Below are positions 21,754 through 57,183 of a stretch of DNA of 64,000 nt, in pieces. The stretch lies in NCBI GenBank assembly GCA_963924555.1, contig OZ004584.1, forward strand, positions 4,649,001-4,713,000. The letters are read 5' to 3'. Every line of letters starts with the position of its first letter. Position 1 is the stretch's first letter. The notes beneath the pieces are model-generated. The model did not search any database and was not told the DNA's origin. It worked only from the letters and a program-made list of their open reading frames with translations. The stretch is from Crambe crambe (taxonomy: Eukaryota > Porifera > Demospongiae > Poecilosclerida > Crambeidae). The position numbers were made by a program, and so were the translations under genes.

Positions 21754-21882
21754 CTGTATGTGACAATACAGTGAATTGCAAGTTGGTTATCCAAATTTAA
21801 AATGCAAATTGACTGCAATATATAAAAATTTGACACATCTATTAAAGAACAGCACACTTCTCTTTTAGATTTTGCATCTTAC

Positions 21883-22761
21883 ATTTGACAACCAACTTGT
21901 AACTGCACAGCTAGACTGATCACTACTTTTACCTTCAGAATCTTCTGTTTTCTCTTGTACTGTTTTATCATGTGATTGAGATTTCTCATCAGCATCTTGA
22001 AGCACTCTACATGTTTCAGTGTGTTCATTTCGCCTTGCAAGCATAAGAGAAGACTGCCCATCTTTATTTTTCACGTTAACTTGTGCACCATATTGAAGCA
22101 GTAGAGCAACTGTTTTAGTGTGTCCATTTTTACTTGCAAACATCAGAGAAGACCACCCGCTACTATTTAACATGTCAACTTGTGCATTATTTTGAAGAAG
22201 TAGATCAACTGTTCCAGCATGTCCATTTCGACTTGCAAGCATCAAAGGAGACAACCCGTTATATAGCTCGTTAACTTGTGCTTTTTTTTGAAGAAGTAGA
22301 GCAACTGTTCTAGTGTGTCCATTTTGACTTGCTAACATCAGAGAAGACCACTTCTTCTTATTAAATTTTGCACCATTTTGAACCAGTAGATCAACTATTT
22401 CAGTGTGTCCTCTTTCACTTGCAATCATCAGAGAAGTCCACCCATCGTTATCGTCCACGTTAACTACCGAGAGCTCTGGATTTTTGGTGCGATTTTTGAT
22501 AGCATCAAGTATCAGCTGTACTATTTCAGTGTGTCCTTGTCTACAGGCACACATGAGGGCATGATCACCTTCAAAATTCTGTTTAGCAATATCAATTTCT
22601 GGGACTTGAAGTAGCTCTTCAACATACTTCATATTTCCATGAAGACAAGCCACCATTAACTGAGAACACTTCTTTCCATTGATCTCCACTAAACTGTTAA
22701 TGTTAGTACTTTCCTTTTTAACTCGTGTCAGGAGAGACTCATCTGACCAACTGGAATCCAT
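21883..22761 (-). CDS. Ankyrin-repeat first exon of an ANK-ZU5 protein
   Basis: An ATG at 22761 opens about 293 codons up to a GTAAGA donor after 21883. Roughly seven ankyrin repeats lie at residues 31-60, 64-95, 106-133, 137-164, 170-198, 201-229 and 234-258, with repeated LMLASRNGHxxTVxLLLQ-type helices. The last repeat is irregular (ARRNEHTETCRVLQ) and is followed by a charged linker rich in K, E and S. There is no signal peptide, so the product is probably cytoplasmic. Ankyrin repeats bind partner proteins. The ZU5 exons follow 130 bp downstream on the same strand, giving an ANK-ZU5 arrangement like that of ankyrins. The start is supported by a similar ATG-led remnant at 57.55 kb. Confidence 0.8.
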
Positions 22762-29690: not shown

Positions 29691-31252
29691 GGAATCACTT
29701 AAATTTGGTTGGAGCTTCAGTGGAGCATCCAACATGTAGGAACTTAATGCACATGTCAAGGAAAAAAAATTAGAAATTTCTTTTCTATCACTCACTATGC
29801 TACAACAAAATAGTTCCCTGTGAAATGCAGAAGCTGACAAACATATCTTCAGCATGATGTACATGTACTAGCCTTTGGTTGTTTCCTCGTTTGTTTTCTC
29901 CTCCTTCGAAACTATGCATATGTTCCTTGTGATGCGTTCCCAACCCCAAATGGTACATTAGGCTTCTGAGCATGTGCAGTATCACTAATGGCCACGGGCA
30001 ACCACTTAAACACATACAGGTGTTGTTAGAACCTGGCGACTTGAAGGATATGAAACACAAAGCTGGAAAACTGAGTTTGTTTGATATTAGCTACCAGGCA
30101 AAAGAGAGAAAATCTGCTTTGTTTTTATATGTTGAGAAAATCACATGATTCTGGTCCTAGCAATTGAGCATGCTCAGTTAGTAAAGGAGCATGTGAAGAA
30201 TGGCTACCAGACCAATAATGTGATAGGTTACTCAAGGGTAATCAGGACCCATAGGATTGAACAATGAAGGGTTACATAATAACCAAGCAAAAACCACTAG
30301 CTAAAATTAATAGTCATGTATCACTTGCTTTCTGCTCTACAATCGAATCACCACAGCAAGGATATTTCTGCTCTGCACTCATTCTTCCCATCTCAGTACA
30401 TACTACTTTCATGAAAGAGCTGAAAATCATATGCCATCTTCTCTTTCTTAGCCATTGCTCAGCAAACACTAGCTGATAGTTTATAGTGAGGCCAATGCCA
30501 TTTTCCCTCTAGCTACATTATTAGACGTCCCATACCACCCTTCATTATAGTCCAATTAGGGGCCTCTACTGAAAGAGGATGGATAAAGGTCATATATCAA
30601 CCAACTTTAATTTTTCTTTTGACACACACACCATACACAATCAGAGTGTACTGTATGAGGTGAATATTACAGGGATTGATCAATAGTACATGGTTGCCAG
30701 GAAACCGACACTGCACATACCTATAGTGGGAAATTTTATTGGGCAAAAATTTATATCCCCTTGCACTCCCTAACCCATCCCTCTCCCATTGCTAAAACAG
30801 AGACAAGATATTTCTAAATGCACCACTTGGCTCCTGCTAACAATCCTTGATATAGCACCAGGAAATGAAATTCATGACTACTCGAAATACCATATCAATG
30901 AATGGTCAGCATTTGATTAATGACCAAAGACAGTTCTTATCTGCATTAAAAAATTAATTAGGTAGTTGTTGTCATGGATACTGATGAAGCACTTGTGGTT
31001 CATTAAGGTTCCTATGGATACATGCACCTATTCATGGATTGATACATTCTTTAAAAAACAACAATACTACCTTCATTGCATTCACTGCTTCTTCACACTG
31101 AGTATGGTAAACTTTAGGCTGAATTTCGTGTGAAGATAGCCCAATTCTTATAGCTAGAACGCATGATAGAAGTTTCATTGGAATAATTACATCCATCTGT
31201 CAGTGTGATACTATTATGTATGAAACAATGGTGTACTCCTTTTCCCCCTCAT
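28195..31252. repeat. Segmental duplication, copy A
   Basis: The region runs from a TG microsatellite (28194-28242) to 31252. It shares most of its sequence, in the same orientation, with 33558-36690. The second TG array (about 29623-29687) matches the one at 35089-35217. No intact gene is seen; an imperfect palindrome CAGTGGACTGTTCCACTG lies at 28400 and is followed by tandem GGAAT units. Confidence 0.8.
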
Positions 31253-31468
31253 TGTTCAAGCAATTCATAGACTTTGGGCAAAATTTTGGTGTGGAGGGGA
31301 TTGAAGCATTACTATAATGTCTTCAAGACAACTCACCACCTTAGGTAGCTATCCCTAAATGGTACTACATGGTTACATATGTAGTTGTCTTATGGTAGGT
31401 CTCAGCTGTCTGGCAACTGCCAGATTAGTCAGAACTCTTCTCCTGTTAATAGGCACATGAATATTTTA

Positions 31469-32571
31469 GAAAATCACATGATTCTGGTCCTAGCAATTGA
31501 GCATGCTCAGTTAGTAAGGAGCATGTGAAGAATGGCTACCAGACCAATAATGTGATAGGTTACTCAAGGGTAATCAGGAACCATAGGATTGAACAATGAA
31601 GGGTTACAAGCAAAAACCACTAGCTAAAATTAAGTCATGTATCACTTGCTTTCTGCTCTACAATCAAATCACCACAGCAAGGATATTTCTGCTCTGCACT
31701 CATTCTTCCCATCTCAGTACATACTACTTTCATGAAAGAACTGAAAATCATATGCCATCTTCTCTTTCTTAGCCATTCCTCAGCAAACACTAGCTGATAG
31801 TTTATAGTGAGGCCAGCGGATGGAATGCCATTTTCCCTCTAGCTACATTATTAGACGTCCCATACCACCCTTCATTATAGTCCAATTAGGGGCCTCTACT
31901 GAAAGAGGATGGATAAAGGTCATATATCAACCAACTTTAATTTTCTTTTGACACACACACCATACACAATAAGAGTGTACTGTATGAGGTGGGATTGATC
32001 AATAGTACATGGTTGCCAGGAAACCGACACTGTACATACCTATAGTGGGAAATTTTATTGGGCAAAAATTTATATCCCCTTGCACTCCCTAACCCATCCC
32101 TCTCCCATTGCTAAAACAGAGACAAGATATTTCTAAATGCACCACTTGGCTCCTGCTAACAATCCTTGATATAGCACCAGGAAATGAAATTCATGACTAC
32201 TCAAAATACCATATCAATGAATGGTCAGCATTTGATTAATGACCAAAGACAGTTCTTATCTGCATTAAAAAATTAATTAGGTAGTTGTTGTCATGGATAC
32301 TGATGAAGCACTTGTGGTTCATTAAGGTTCCTATGGATACATGCACCTATTCATGGATTGATACATTCTTTAAAAAACAACAATACTACGTTCACTGCAT
32401 TCACTGCTTCTTCACACTGAGTATGGTAAACTTTAGGCTGAATTTCGTGTGAAGATAGCCCAATTCTTATAGCTAGAACGCATGATAGAAGTTTCATTGG
32501 AATAATTACATCCATCTGTCAGTGTGATACTATTATGTATGAAACAATGGTGTACTCCTTTTCCCCCTCAT
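31469..32571. repeat. 1.1-kb direct duplicate of 30136-31252
   Basis: Nearly identical to 30136-31252, beginning GAAAATCACATGATTCTGG and ending GTACTCCTTTTCCCCCTCA, with only a few substitutions and small indels (one removes GAATATTACA-type sequence). The two copies are separated by 216 bp. High similarity indicates a recent event. Confidence 0.9.
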
Positions 32572-33557: not shown

Positions 33558-36690
<3,133 letters not shown>

Positions 36691-39911: not shown

Positions 39912-40306
39912 TATTATACAGAGATAGCTATCTTTAAAGACATACCGAGCAAGTGTTTCAATATCGTTCATGATATCAATCATCCTCTTGACACTGATCA
40001 GTACAGGAGTATCCTTCATTCCAATTAGCTAACTGATTATCCAATGAAGCTTTGGCCACCTAAAAACAGCACTATACGTATAATAACTATTTCATTATAT
40101 ATCGCTCTTTTAATTACCTTGAGGTGTTGAGTATCCACTTCTAGATACGTATGTTTGGTTGCATCCGTTGGTGAATCTATATTATATCAAAGAATCACAA
40201 TGTTCGCACTGGATTTTTAGATATCAGCCACAGTAGCTACAACCATAGAGTGAACATAATAGCTATGCAGGTCTTGCTGGTAACATTAGCTAGTAGCTAC
40301 AGGCCT

Positions 40307-40451
40307 TGTAGTGTCCAGAAATCAGTAACCTAAAAACATAAGGCTTTTATCGACTTAGAAATAGTGGTAAGAGATGATACAAAATCAATACACGTGCACA
40401 AGGTAAGGGTTGACACAAATACAAAATCAAAAGAAATAATGTTCTACATCA
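40307..40451 (-). repeat. 3' LTR of the gypsy element
   Basis: 145 bp and identical to 44116-44260. Begins TG and ends CA in element sense. Contains TAAGTCGATAAAA, complementary to the presumed primer site. Confidence 0.93.
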
Positions 40452-40480
40452 TTCACCCTCTGCTTTTAAATAGTTCATGG

Positions 40481-43400
40481 CTAGAGTCTATCAGGAGCAC
40501 GCCTTTGTCGATTTGAACGTCGGAGAGGCTGAGCTTCTACTGTAGGGGTAACAGAGTCCCTAGATACAGTAGGATTAGCATTGTCTTTGGGAACAATTGC
40601 ATCCTCTTCTGATGCAATAGTGGAGCCTTCTAGATGGTCGACTGCAGCTCCATCTCCACCATTGGTGTTAGTAGTTTCATCACTTGGCAAACTAGTACTG
40701 TCTGTCTGTGTGTGTCCTGGTAGCACATCCTTTTGTTGACTTGTGTCTCCACTAGGGGCTAGATGTCGTATTGACACGGTAGTCTCTCGGCCATCAGCAT
40801 ATCGGACATGTGCATACTGCGGATTAGCCTGCAGCAGTTCAACTTCATCCACCAAGGGGTCGCTCTTGCTGGTGCGAACATGACGTTTGAGGAGGACAGA
40901 GCCTGGAGTTAAGAGCCAGGTTGGCACTGATCCGCCAGTAGAAGAACGCCTCTCAAATTTGAAGAGCCTCTCATGTGGGGTGCAGTTAGTGGCCGTGCAC
41001 AGCAGAGAACGCAGGGAGTGCAATGCATCAGGGAGAACGTCTTGCCAGCGTGTAATTGGAAGGCAACGGGTTTTCAGGGCCATAGTTATAGCCTTCCAAA
41101 TTGTTCCATTGTATTTTTCCACTTGACCATTACATGCTGGGTTGTAAGGAGTAGTCCGACTAGTGGCAATGCCTTTATTCAGAAGGAACTGGCGGAGCTC
41201 TTCACTCATGAAGGATGAACCCCTGTCTGAGTGGATGTATGCTGGCATCCCAAAAATAGAGAAAAGCTGACATAAGCATTGTATGACACTCTGTGTGCTA
41301 ACATCCTTACATGGGAACACAAACGGGAACCGACTATACTCGTCAATTATATTGAGGAAGAAAGTGTTCTGGTTATTTGACTTCAGGGGGCCTTTGAAAT
41401 CGATATTCAATCTCTCAAAAGGTTGAGTAGCCTTTATCAGGTGTGCTTGGATAGGCGAATGGAACTGAGGCTTCAATTCCGCACATACCCTGCAAGCCTT
41501 GGTCATCTGTCTCACATCCTCCACAGAATATGGTAGATTCCGACTCTTCACAAAGTGGAACATGCGGGTAACTCCAGGGTGACAAAGTGAATTATGAAGT
41601 TCACTTAGGTTACTACATGGGAGGGCAGCACAGAAAGCACGAGATAATGTATCAGGAGGGATATTTTCAGCTCCTGGACGGTACACAATATCAAAGCTGT
41701 AGCAAGATAATTCTGTTCTCCATCGCATAATCTTATCATTTTTTATTTTCCCTCTCTGTTTGTTGTCAAACATGTAGGCAACAGAACGTTGATCAGTCCT
41801 TATAGTGAAGTGCCCTCTAGTAAGATAGTGTCTCCAGTGGCGAATTGCCTCAATAATGGCCTTGGCTTCTTTTTCAACCGATGCATGACTAATCTCTGGA
41901 CCCTGTAACGTGCGGGAAAAAAATGCTACTGGGCGCCCATTCTGATTAAGGGTAGCTGCGATGGCAAAGTCAGAAGCATCAGTTTCAACTTCAAAAGGAG
42001 TTTGCTCATCGATGGCACACACAACTGAGTTTTCAATGTCCCTTTTCAGGGCTTCAAATGCAGTCTTAGCCTCTATAGATATAGGGAAAGTGGATGTTGT
42101 TGTAAGAGGCCGTATTTTATCAGAGTAGCACTGAATCCATTGGGAGTAGTGAGAAAAGAATCCAAGAACCCGGCGAAGACTTTTGGCATCATTTGGAGCT
42201 GGGAGCTGCAAGAGGGGACGCAGGCGTTCTGGATCTGGCCTGATCTCTCCATCCTCAATGATGTAGCCAAGGATAGCCAATTTTCCGGTGGAAAATATAC
42301 TTTTGTCATCATTGTAGGTAATTTTGCGCCGAGAGGCTACTTCTTGAAAACACTTTAAATTTTTATCATGTTCTTCCTGATCTTTTCCACATATTGTCAC
42401 ATCGTCGAGGTATGCAAAGGTGCCCTGTAGTTTTTCTTCGGCTATAATATTGGTCATGATCCTTTGAAAACATGCCACCCCATTGGTCACCCCAAAAGGT
42501 ATGCGTGTGAATTGATACAGTGCATTACCTGCCTGGAAAGCAGTGTATGGTTTGTCACTTTCCTTGATGTTGACCTGGTGGTAAGCACTGCGGAGATCGA
42601 TGGTGCTGAAGATTCGGTATTGGGCAATGGTATTGACAGTGTCGTCAATGCGAGGCAATGGATAAGCATCCAGAAGAGTGAAGCGGTTTATGGTCTGTGA
42701 ATAATCAATAACCATCCTTTTCTTATGATTTTCGTTACGAGTTACAACCACTTGAGCTCGCCAAGGTGAGGTACTGGGTTCAATGACTCCTTCCCCAAGT
42801 AGGCGCTGTACCTCAGCGTCTATAAACTTTCTGTCCTCATAACTGTATCTGCGTGACTTGGTTGCTATGGGATGAATATCAGCAGTCAGGTTACTAAAGA
42901 GGTCGGGAGATTCAACTTTCAGTGTGCTGAGGCCACAGACGGTGAGAGGAGGCTCCGGTCCTCCATGATGGAAGCTAACACTCTGGTGTTGCTTTTGGAA
43001 ATCAAGTCCAAGGATCAAATCCGAGCACAAACTAGGAAGTATTGACAGGTGAAAATTGGAGTATGTCCGGCCATCTAGTTCTAGGCTGGTAATGCAATAT
43101 CCAAGAGTTTTGGCAGAAAGAGAAGACTGAGCCATGCAGATATCCCTGGGGTCAGAGTACTTTTGGAGGTCAAGAACATCCACAAGGTGAGGGTGGATAA
43201 AACTTTCCGTGCTACAGGAGTCTATCAGAGCCCTAGCACTTACGCCATTGATGGTGACCTCAGAGCTTGATTTGAGTAATGCTGGTGGAGTGCTAGAAGT
43301 GACTGCAGCTAATGTTGGGTACATAGCGGCTGCAGTGCCTCCCTGTTCACCAGTAGGATTGGACCTGCAGACCTTGGCAAAGTGCCCCTTCTTCTGACAC

Positions 43401-44098
43401 CTTCTGCAGGTTGCATCCTTAGCTGGGCATTTCTGACGTGGATGCTTACTGTTACCACAAAAGTAGCACTTGGCTCCAGAGACTGCTGCAACAAAGCTCT
43501 CAGGATCGCTGGCAGATGGTGGGGAAGTAGTAGTTGTAGCGGCAACAGGGAGGGGAGGAGGGCCCAATGAACCATAGGCTTCAGAGCTCTTTTGGGCGGT
43601 GTCCAGTGATCGGGCCTGTATGGACATAGTACTCAGATCAAGAGTTTTATTCTCTAGTAGACGCTGGCGTATGGCGTTGGATTGTAGACCAGTAATGAAT
43701 GCGTCACGCACTGCCTCGTCCCTGTAAACAGCAGCAGTGACATTCTGAAAGTTACAATCCTTGGATAAGGTCTTAAGAGCCAGGAGGAATTCATCGATAG
43801 TCTCACCACTCCGCTGTCGTCGGGTTGCCAATAAATGTCGGGCAAACACTTCATTGGTGGGCTTGATATAGAGAGCCTTCAGTGTAGCAATGGCATCGTC
43901 GTAGTTCTCGCAGTGTTCGATATACTCAAAGATTCGTGGGCTAACGTAGTTTGTTAGCACTTGCAATTTGTTAAGCCCATCAGTAGGCAGGACTGAGACG
44001 AAGTTCTCGAAGGTGCGAATCCAGTGTAGCCACTCCTTGTTCGCCATGCTCGAGTTGGGATCTGTGCCCAGTTTCTCTGGCCGCAGGAGTCGTTCCAT
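40481..44098 (-). CDS. Gag-Pol polyprotein of the gypsy element
   Basis: A single uninterrupted frame of 1205 residues makes Gag and Pol together. Gag comes first and ends with two CCHC knuckles (C211, C214, H219, C224 and C231, C234, H239, C244). The protease has ALIDSCST near residue 293 and ILGLD near 363. Reverse transcriptase contains FSTIDLRSAYHQ (D501) and YLDD (D565, D566). RNase H has TDAS (D707), E744, D769 and D816. Integrase has an H835/H840/C869/C872 zinc site and a D900-D958-E994 triad with 35 residues between the last two. The C-terminal tail ends in RRSNRQRRAPDRL; no chromodomain or envelope gene is seen. The first Met at 44098 is just inside the 5' LTR. The protease motif is DSC instead of the usual DSG/DTG. 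All other key residues are present, so it is likely functional or recently so. Confidence 0.95.
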   Translation of the reverse strand: MERLLRPEKLGTDPNSSMANKEWLHWIRTFENFVSVLPTDGLNKLQVLTNYVSPRIFEYIEHCENYDDAIATLKALYIKPTNEVFARHLLATRRQRSGETIDEFLLALKTLSKDCNFQNVTAAVYRDEAVRDAFITGLQSNAIRQRLLENKTLDLSTMSIQARSLDTAQKSSEAYGSLGPPPLPVAATTTTSPPSASDPESFVAAVSGAKCYFCGNSKHPRQKCPAKDATCRRCQKKGHFAKVCRSNPTGEQGGTAAAMYPTLAAVTSSTPPALLKSSSEVTINGVSARALIDSCSTESFIHPHLVDVLDLQKYSDPRDICMAQSSLSAKTLGYCITSLELDGRTYSNFHLSILPSLCSDLILGLDFQKQHQSVSFHHGGPEPPLTVCGLSTLKVESPDLFSNLTADIHPIATKSRRYSYEDRKFIDAEVQRLLGEGVIEPSTSPWRAQVVVTRNENHKKRMVIDYSQTINRFTLLDAYPLPRIDDTVNTIAQYRIFSTIDLRSAYHQVNIKESDKPYTAFQAGNALYQFTRIPFGVTNGVACFQRIMTNIIAEEKLQGTFAYLDDVTICGKDQEEHDKNLKCFQEVASRRKITYNDDKSIFSTGKLAILGYIIEDGEIRPDPERLRPLLQLPAPNDAKSLRRVLGFFSHYSQWIQCYSDKIRPLTTTSTFPISIEAKTAFEALKRDIENSVVCAIDEQTPFEVETDASDFAIAATLNQNGRPVAFFSRTLQGPEISHASVEKEAKAIIEAIRHWRHYLTRGHFTIRTDQRSVAYMFDNKQRGKIKNDKIMRWRTELSCYSFDIVYRPGAENIPPDTLSRAFCAALPCSNLSELHNSLCHPGVTRMFHFVKSRNLPYSVEDVRQMTKACRVCAELKPQFHSPIQAHLIKATQPFERLNIDFKGPLKSNNQNTFFLNIIDEYSRFPFVFPCKDVSTQSVIQCLCQLFSIFGMPAYIHSDRGSSFMSEELRQFLLNKGIATSRTTPYNPACNGQVEKYNGTIWKAITMALKTRCLPITRWQDVLPDALHSLRSLLCTATNCTPHERLFKFERRSSTGGSVPTWLLTPGSVLLKRHVRTSKSDPLVDEVELLQANPQYAHVRYADGRETTVSIRHLAPSGDTSQQKDVLPGHTQTDSTSLPSDETTNTNGGDGAAVDHLEGSTIASEEDAIVPKDNANPTVSRDSVTPTVEAQPLRRSNRQRRAPDRL

Positions 44099-44115
44099 AT
44101 TTAAGTCGATAAAAT

Positions 44116-44260
44116 TGTAGTGTCCAGAAATCAGTAACCTAAAAACATAAGGCTTTTATCGACTTAGAAATAGTGGTAAGAGATGATACAAAATCAATAC
44201 ACGTGCACAAGGTAAGGGTTGACACAAATACAAAATCAAAAGAAATAATGTTCTACATCA
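44116..44260 (-). repeat. 5' LTR of the gypsy element
   Basis: 145 bp and identical to the other LTR. The 13 bases at 44154-44166 are the exact reverse complement of 44102-44114, which begins one base inside the element from the LTR edge. The coding start (44098) lies 18 bp from the LTR, so the leader is very short. Confidence 0.93.
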
Positions 44261-44936
44261 GGCCTTAGTGTGAGTGTCATTATGAGAGCTATCTAACAGC
44301 TATAGCTTAATTGATGCACTATGCTAGTGATGTCATCATCTCATAGAGTGAACATACTTGGAAGAGCTGGTAGCACAAATGTGCACTCTTCATCCAGTCC
44401 TGTTACACTCAGTGTTAGAGGCTCTAGTCTGGCACGAGCATGGCTGATGGTGATCCTTGGAGGGTAGTCTGGTATCTCTGTTACTAATTCACCCTCTGTC
44501 TCTGGAAGATCAATCTCTGCCTTTGAAATCTATAGATAATACATACATTAGCTATAATAGCTAGTGGGTATCAAATTTTAATAGGCTGCATGAATTCATA
44601 ATGAATAGAGAAGTCCACACATTTATGTTGATGATGAATAATTAGAGATTGCATGCCCACTCATTGCTGAACTAGATTAGGAATCAAATTTCAGGATTAA
44701 AGGACAATGCATGTGTGGTAGACTATGTACTATGAATACTAATTAACATTACATAATCATGTCATTACGTCATTATTTGTTACCGGTATACATTACAGTG
44801 AATAACAGAGAATATCAGTCATGTGCTCAATGATTTAACTATCTTAGCACCAAAATTTAGCTACAAGGTTACTGGATTCAGTAGGGAGTGGCTGAAAACT
44901 ATTAGGTATATCTGTTAACTTTCTTCACACCTTTAG

Positions 44937-55471: not shown

Positions 55472-57183
55472 ATGACTGCACAGTGGATGGTGGTAATTTG
55501 CATTGGAGTTTTTTCTCTATCACCTCAAAGTGTTATTTCGCAAATTCCTGCAAGCTGTAGCGATACACAAAGTCTTCGAAATATGGAATGCTGTCCTAAC
55601 AATTGTGGTGGACCAAGTCGTGGTACATGTGCAAACATAGATCTACCATCAAGTTTTAACATGTCTAGTACTGATGTACGTGCAAATTGGCCACACTACT
55701 TCAGGCGAGCATGCAGTTGCAATGGTAACTATGGAGGATACGACTGCAGTAGGTGCAAGTATGGATATTATGGATCAAACTGCATCAAGGATCAAAATTT
55801 TCCACGAAGATCCATTCATGACCTCGATTATTTTGAATGGCATGACTATATTGAAATACTGAACATGACAAGGACTTACCCCTCTGGTTATAAAGTAGTC
55901 TTGAATGAAAGTCGACCTGGTTCCACTAACATCATGACAGTTAACATAAGCCTATATGATTTATTTGTCTGGCGACATCATTATGCTGCTAAAAACAGTG
56001 AATGTAACGGTAAGGCTCTAATTATTACGCACACACATATACACATTTGTGCATGCATGCCTCTCACTGTTTTAAGCTACTGAATTTTGCAGGTATGGAT
56101 TGTCCTAAAATAGACTATGCGCATGAGGCTACTGGATTTCCAACATGGCACCGACAGTTTGTGTTGTGGTTTGAGTGGGAAATTCAATGGATGCTGAAAA
56201 GTATGAGGCATCAGAATTACTATGCCTTCAGGACCCACTACTGGGACTGGCGAAAAGAGACACAGGAGGCCATCAGTGATGATACTGAAATCTTCGTTCC
56301 TAATAGATTAGGAGAGAGGCGAAACAACATAAACAGTCAGCCTCAGGTGCATGGTGATTTGTTTGAAGGTGGTTGGGACACCATTTGCTGGTATAATGGC
56401 AGTGGTAATGTGATAATGCCAAAAGGCACCATATGTGATCCCAGAATAAAAACTGGACCTTTGCTTCGTTGTCCCTTGGCACAAGATGACAAAAAAGATC
56501 CTTGTGATAGATTCAATCCTGACTGGCCTTCTAGAGCTGATGTTGAAAAAGCACTCAGTAAGCAACAGTATGACACTCAACCTTACAATAAACGTGCAAG
56601 TGAAGAGAGCTTTCGTAATTTTATGGAAGGCTTTGACAGTAGTGTCAGCATTGATGACTGTAGAAGCGATCCACTATGCTTATGTGAAGGAGGAATGCCA
56701 CTAAAGCGAAATCTCCACAACTTAGTAAGTACATCATGTATAGCTTAGTGGTATAGCTATGACAGTATTGCTACACAAATGAAAAAATTATTATAATTTT
56801 TGTAGATCCATATCATTGTTGGCATGGTAAATTTGATACCTAATCTTCCCTATGACGTGAAAGGTGTGATGGCTGATGTTGCTGCCTCTCCAAATGATCC
56901 ACTTTTCATCAACCACCATACCACGGTTGACTGTATCCTCGAGGGGTGGCTGCAGCGTAATCCAAATGCTCGGTACCCTGATGATGTTGAGATAAAGGGA
57001 CATCAGAAGAATGGATACATAGTTCCATTCTTCCCGCTCTTCAAGCATAGTGATATGTTCAAAACTGCAGATAATTTTGGCTATTCCTGTGATTTATTTT
57101 CCGGTGGGAATGTAACATTTAACCCATCTGTGCTGATTCATGTTGCAGGGAGCTTAATTCTGAGCATTTTAATGTTTATGTAA
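55472..57183 (+). CDS. Tyrosinase (type-3 copper oxidase)
   Basis: Three exons (55472-56009, 56093-56724, 56806-57183) join in frame to 515 codons. The protein starts with a signal peptide (residues 1-24), followed by a Cys-rich EGF-like stretch (ACSCNGNYGGYDC ... GYYGSNC) near residues 80-110. Copper site A is WRHHYAAK, AHEATGFPTWHRQFVLW; site B is LHNLIHII and FINHHTTVD, so all six copper histidines are present. Tyrosinases oxidise monophenols and diphenols to quinones, for melanin or for cross-linking and defence. The C-terminus is a short hydrophobic segment (LIHVAGSLILSILMFM) with no cytoplasmic tail, suggesting a GPI-anchor signal or a short membrane anchor. Splice sites are canonical. 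This is the most clearly intact host gene in the window. Vertebrate-type tyrosinases have a comparable EGF-like region but a longer tail. Confidence 0.92.

Follow-up and report, generated by a model that had tools for sequence, protein, structure and literature searches.

The closest described system is Tf1, in which the first 11 bases of the RNA are complementary to the primer site and the RNA is cut between bases 11 and 12, according to the available passages of PMC7175516. Among Ty3/Gypsy elements, the accessible parts of PMC10085805 and PMC6317226 tie self-priming to the Tf1/sushi chromoviruses and to Tcn1, and the latter source predicts it for most Tcn1 elements and for TAR elements of plants. 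Tcn1 is a chromovirus and TAR belongs to Ty1/copia, which sets both apart from the element described here. For spikemoss SM-Tcn1, the accessible text of PMC2864245 gives evidence of neither tRNA priming nor self-priming.

Fungal GalEa elements with a Conserved Hairpin Site resemble the present element in having a hairpin in place of a tRNA-type primer site. They differ in the position of the arms, neither of which reaches upstream of the LTR end, and the available excerpts of PMC5445492 report no complementary LTR stretch; in the present element one arm lies well inside the LTR. Most dictyostelid Skipper elements are likewise without TGG, but are described, in passages of PMC5006619, with a polypyrimidine tract and no complementary LTR stretch. 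We found no report of self-priming in a non-chromovirus animal Gypsy clade in a literature judged by titles, the starts of abstracts and passages, with subscription journals mostly outside it. In the available text of PMC9873768 and PMC4340606, the term self-priming denotes PCR or cDNA artefacts and not a retroelement mechanism.

We analysed a stretch of 64,000 nucleotides from the sponge Crambe crambe (contig OZ004584.1; hereafter the window), in which a Gypsy element had been predicted from the letters of the DNA to self-prime in the manner of Tf1 (the original prediction). This element and its relatives resemble Tf1, Tf2, Tj1 and sushi-ichi in having an LTR-adjacent primer site complementary to the RNA start, over 11 bases in Tf1 as described in passages of PMC7175516 and over 13-14 bases from the presumed RNA start here, and there is no tRNA site in either.

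Results

A compact Ty3/Gypsy element with identical LTRs

The element occupies 40307-44260 on the minus strand, to which its features given below also belong, and consists of an LTR pair and one Gag-Pol frame. Sequence reading and a repeat search place the 145-bp 5' LTR (TGATG...TACA) at 44116-44260 and the 3' LTR, identical to it in every letter, at 40307-40451, with the target site duplication AGGCC on the 5' side (44261-44265) and on the 3' side (40302-40306). The repeat finder returned 146 bases at 100% identity; the true LTR is 145 bp, since the 5-bp duplication and an LTR-only genome copy (C11) ending at TACA make base 44115 a one-base spacer between the LTR end and the primer site, and not a part of the LTR. 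The Gag-Pol frame (40481-44098, 1205 aa) encodes protease, RT, RNase H and integrase, and two CCHC knuckles can be seen by eye. A polypurine tract, AAAAGCAGAGGGTGAA, was assigned at 40452-40467 from its position and make-up. In element sense, the order at the 5' side is LTR ...CACTACA, A, TTTTATCGACTTA, AAT, ATG, which places the start of Gag-Pol 3 nt past the primer site. The element thus shows the PR-RT-RNase H-IN order, the TG...CA LTRs and the 5-bp target duplication of Ty3/Gypsy elements (Metaviridae).

In the home genome we found one copy with RT, the next RT match being 35% identical. The identical LTRs, the single RT copy and the presence of 77-85% identical proteins in other sources make a recent arrival or horizontal transfer of the element possible. 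Elsewhere, the window holds local repeats of ~80-300 bases, mostly 96-99% alike and spaced ~1.3 and 4.2 kb (30133-32290 and 35667-35864), a frame that looks ankyrin-repeat-like by eye (21865-22761), and a tyrosinase-like frame (56047-56748) whose database hits carry PF00264.

The LTR pairs with the putative primer-binding site over 13 bases

Direct reading of the sequence bears out the predicted inverted match one base inside the 5' LTR. The putative primer-binding site (44102-44114, TTTTATCGACTTA in element sense, without TGG) is the exact reverse complement, over 13 bases, of the putative self-primer (44154-44166, TAAGTCGATAAAA in element sense, LTR positions 95-107, including GATAAA at 44155-44160), and the match is broken on either side. 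On the plus strand, 44102-44114 reads TAAGTCGATAAAA and 44154-44166 reads TTTTATCGACTTA. As the original prediction had also stated, the inner 13-mer is present in both LTRs, its 3' LTR copy lying at 40345-40357.

The same prediction held that a chance match was very unlikely, and an order-1 model of the LTR agrees, with 1.2e-6 expected matches over 4 offsets. Across the window, 110 of 127,682 positions (0.09%, both strands) are 13-mers with a reverse complement in the preceding 146 bases, a background that counts real inverted repeats too. The 143-Mb assembly contains 8 copies of the 13-mer: 5 within the element family (both window LTRs, the window primer site, and the LTRs of copies C16 and C11) and 3 elsewhere, and ARAGORN found no tRNA in the 3-kb loci around these three unrelated sites. 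The fold of the window-element leader contains the 13-bp stem and reaches -18.4 kcal/mol (z -4.66), with 0 of 200 shuffles as low; the fold of a longer leader (147 nt) stands out less, at z -2.53 and with 5 of 200 shuffles reaching an equally low energy.

The other home-genome copies offered no compensation test. C16 is an incomplete 5' piece, in which 12 of 13 bases pair with one mismatch, C11 is an LTR alone, and C1 (L013) and C5 (L014) are divergent LTRs whose primer sites could not be read.

The primer site does not resemble a tRNA-type site

Mature tRNAs end in CCA, and primer sites for their 3' ends start with TGG. The first TGG past the LTR end lies 18 bases away in the window element, at the Gag start, and 29 and 51 bases away in its relatives L049 and L050 (see below). 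Judged by its letters, the window primer site is not of the tRNA type, because there is no TGG there. A comparison with the tRNAs of the genome, proposed together with the original prediction, yielded no good fit among 40 tRNA genes (36 distinct) of an incomplete set, for which 40 of 62 matches were used and the underlying search scored 63 of 5401 candidates. The best 3'-end match was 9/18, at offset 4, and the longest internal match was 6 nt, inside the shuffle range.

As controls we took 8 other Gypsy elements of the same genome, picked from its 100 other RT matches. Six of them (L056, L057, L058, L099, L101 and L102) yielded an LTR pair, and L055 and L100 did not. All six have TGG at most 2 bases from the repeat end, the 5' repeat of L099 being cut by the edge of the stretch, and their longest self matches are 4-6 nt. 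Two of the controls fit the tRNA-Met end at 14/18, offset 0. L057 has a TGG site and yet fits none of the 40 tRNAs better than 9/18, which shows that the tRNA set is incomplete. In two of the controls (L099:189-4778 and L101:351-4919) the integrase lies upstream of RT in one frame, an order known from Gmr1-like elements, and in L099 there is a match to a SCAN domain as well.

Two relatives keep the pairing with different letters

A protein search returned 1898 proteins; among the best 120, many compact relatives lie on ~4-kb contigs, and the named ones come from Trichuris, Trichinella, Actinostola, Hypanus and Scyliorhinus. A search of viral contigs found no relatives, and a plasmid scan gave 3 records with distant RTs. 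One of these, NZ_CP087956.1 (5.3 kb), is filed as a Wolbachia plasmid and encodes a Gypsy-type RT; it may be a moth retroelement.

L049 and L050, both from one genome-collection scan, were the only relatives readable as DNA. Their best tblastn segments are 63% and 58% identical, respectively, to the window polyprotein. Both contigs are binned in bacterial MAGs and look like eukaryotic retroelements with overlapping ends: each holds one LTR and overlaps itself at its ends, so that they look like one-LTR circles or the assembly of a collapsed LTR. Their LTR bounds were set from TG...CA, the polypurine tract and the primer site. Further searches of the two genomes yielded 2 distant elements, L053 and L054, in which a terminal-repeat search found no repeats.

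The pairing is kept, with compensated letters, in both relatives, an outcome that supports self-priming as the original prediction had proposed it. In L049, TATTGTTGATTAAA in the LTR pairs with the primer site TTTAATCAACAATA at 14 of 14 positions, with letters that differ from those of the window element, and this is the sole inverted repeat of at least 9 in the first 520 bases. In L050, TAATGTAATAAAA in the LTR pairs with TTTTATTACATTA at 13 of 13 positions, the letters again being different; it is the longest of ten inverted repeats listed for a 700-base stretch, the others being 8-10 nt long and including some palindromes. The order-1 chance expectation is 1.3e-5 for L049 and 7.6e-4 for the A/T-rich L050, the latter far weaker evidence than the other two elements provide. 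Minimum-energy folding of the leaders of L049 and L050 also yields this stem.

The geometry of the pairing is shared as well. In all three elements the site begins one base past an LTR ending in CTACA, while LTR length (145 in the window element, 199 in L049, 121 in L050) and the distance from primer start to LTR end (51, 64 and 62, respectively) vary. With the three elements in register, 8 of 13 columns vary and every pair is Watson-Crick, whereas combining an arm of one element with the opposite arm of another leaves 6-9 of 13 positions paired (6-10 with G-U). Because a MAFFT alignment of four leaders misplaced the L050 primer, positions were numbered from the LTR end for this count. On this reading of the letters, the covariation is where the self-priming model demands it.

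Leaders could also be sought in the protein records. A Gag start motif is present in 73 of the best 120 proteins, and a leader of at least 70 nt only in P0031 and P0070. Under free codon choice, the 114-nt translated leader of P0031 has no complementary run longer than 11, and the 78-nt translated leader of P0070 none longer than 8, lengths no greater than in shuffled leaders. These leaders may be too short to show pairing, and P0031, if its leader is complete, may be a relative without self-priming. The result counts against universality of self-priming in the clade.

The family falls in a clade of its own in the RT-RNase H tree

We collected RT-RNase H pieces from 50 sources, among them 28 of the loci L016-L044 (29 in all, of which L037 was left out as too short), and built a tree of 40 rows after dropping eight near-copies together with L053 and L054. 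A family of 19 forms one side of a branch with support 100/100. Within it, the window element shares a branch with three unnamed proteins (99/100), L049 is joined by two others besides the Actinostola protein (100/99), and L050 clusters with the proteins of Hypanus and Scyliorhinus (100/99). Ty3 was the only named reference, and it lies among other elements of the host genome. Forcing it to join the family costs 18.6 log units with a p-AU of 0.056, in a region of the tree where long branches meet, that of Ty3 among them, and a grouping of the family with Ty3 appears disfavoured on these sequences.

The label Tf1-like, used in the original prediction, fits the mechanism only. With an E cut-off of 0.01, a scan detected a chromodomain in none of 36 family members and in none of 7 control frames, and it had no positive control. 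Of the two further PBS-flank duplexes in the Tf1 pretzel, the window element and L049 showed neither (no run longer than 5 nt), and L050 has a 9-nt run on one side only. Membership in the Tf1/sushi group is not supported, in a tree that held Ty3 and no Tf1 or sushi sequence. The single Gag-Pol frame had been offered as a further link to Tf1. Such a frame is indeed present, and Tf1 reportedly has one frame as well, but this is weak evidence for a connection.

Discussion

We consider self-primed reverse transcription by the element's own RNA to be by far the best reading of this locus, and a very probable one. The three compensated pairings in the same place favour it over coincidence, and no fewer than three elements, each on a separate branch of a Ty3/Gypsy clade without chromodomain, appear to share the trait. 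In the proposed mechanism, transcription would start within the LTR, at position 95 or a little before it, and the first 13 bases of the RNA would fold onto the primer-binding site to form a 13-bp stem, for which the pairing is present in the sequence. By analogy with Tf1, the element RNase H would then cut after LTR position 107 and free a short RNA, whose 3' end would start minus-strand synthesis one base past the LTR, at its terminus. A tRNA would not be used. The exact start at LTR position 94-95 given in the original prediction is not strictly needed, as any start at or upstream of 95 would serve. A point against this reading is that, by eye, no clear TATA box lies ~30 bases ahead of the primer in any of the three elements. 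The stem stops 3 nt short of the Gag start codon, and translation and priming may compete.

Each primer holds a hexamer, GATAAA in the window element, ATTAAA in L049 and AATAAA in L050, which resembles a polyadenylation signal. The duplex could accordingly serve to mask the 5' poly(A) signal so that only the 3' copy is used, with priming achieved by other means. The occurrence of the hexamer in all three primers and of the partner site only beside the 5' LTR would fit this reading, which we nevertheless regard as very unlikely: masking needs no fixed place, yet in each of the three elements the partner sits a single base inside the LTR, at the spot expected of a primer site; no tRNA-type site is left for priming; and hexamers of this kind are frequent in A/T-rich DNA. 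Masking as a second function next to priming is compatible with self-priming, and the stem may hide the poly(A) signal at the RNA 5' end while the 3' LTR copy has no partner.

We judge it very unlikely that ATAAAAG (LTR positions 102-108) is a TATA box, with the RNA starting at ~130 and having a 5' end without the primer, and that the 3' LTR copy pairs with the primer site for RNA circularisation or strand-transfer guidance. Such a start would leave an R-U5 of ~15 bases and no primer. Moreover, a TATA-like stretch is present as GATAAAAG in the window and as TATAAAAG in L013, a divergent LTR, but GATTAAAG in L049 and AATAAAAT in L050 are poor fits. This reading would put the RNA start too far downstream for self-priming and is the main rival.

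Priming by a host tRNA or an internal tRNA piece, with the self match a coincidence, has in its favour that tRNA priming is widespread and agrees with all 6 readable controls, that the tRNA set is incomplete (40 of 62 matches) and that L057 is also without a good partner (9/18). It is nonetheless highly improbable for the window element, where the first TGG comes 18 bases past the LTR end, the best 3' match is 9/18 against 14/18 in two controls, and the longest internal match, of 6 nt, is in the shuffle range; nor does coincidence explain three compensated pairings. A functionless chance inverted repeat, for which the A/T-rich sequence and the 0.09% of window positions with a 13-nt match of such geometry might speak, is hardly conceivable given pairing in 3 of 3 separate elements, in the same place and with other letters.

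Self-priming in these elements would differ in several respects from that of Tf1/sushi. The window family is without chromodomain and its RT falls in a clade of its own in the 40-row tree, two of the three elements showed no pretzel duplexes, and the primers hold a poly(A)-like hexamer. The named relatives here, among the best 120 of 1898 proteins, are from animals: whipworm, Trichinella, sea anemone, ray and catshark. Since two distant relatives keep the pairing with different letters, our data suggest that self-priming is used outside the family from which it is known.

A separate self-priming clade would imply either repeated origins of this mode of priming or an ancient one. A passage of PMC3601003 speculates that the precursor of LTR elements self-primed. 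We put forward only tentatively, as a rather doubtful extension, that self-priming is ancestral and general in an animal-dwelling non-chromovirus Ty3/Gypsy clade, that the primer also hides the 5' poly(A) signal, and that the elements are thereby free from host tRNAs and from defence by tRNA fragments. If true, self-priming would spare these elements any reliance on one given host tRNA; this may help them to move between distant hosts and to escape the small RNAs cut from tRNA 3' ends, which are described at the start of the abstract of PMC7472051.
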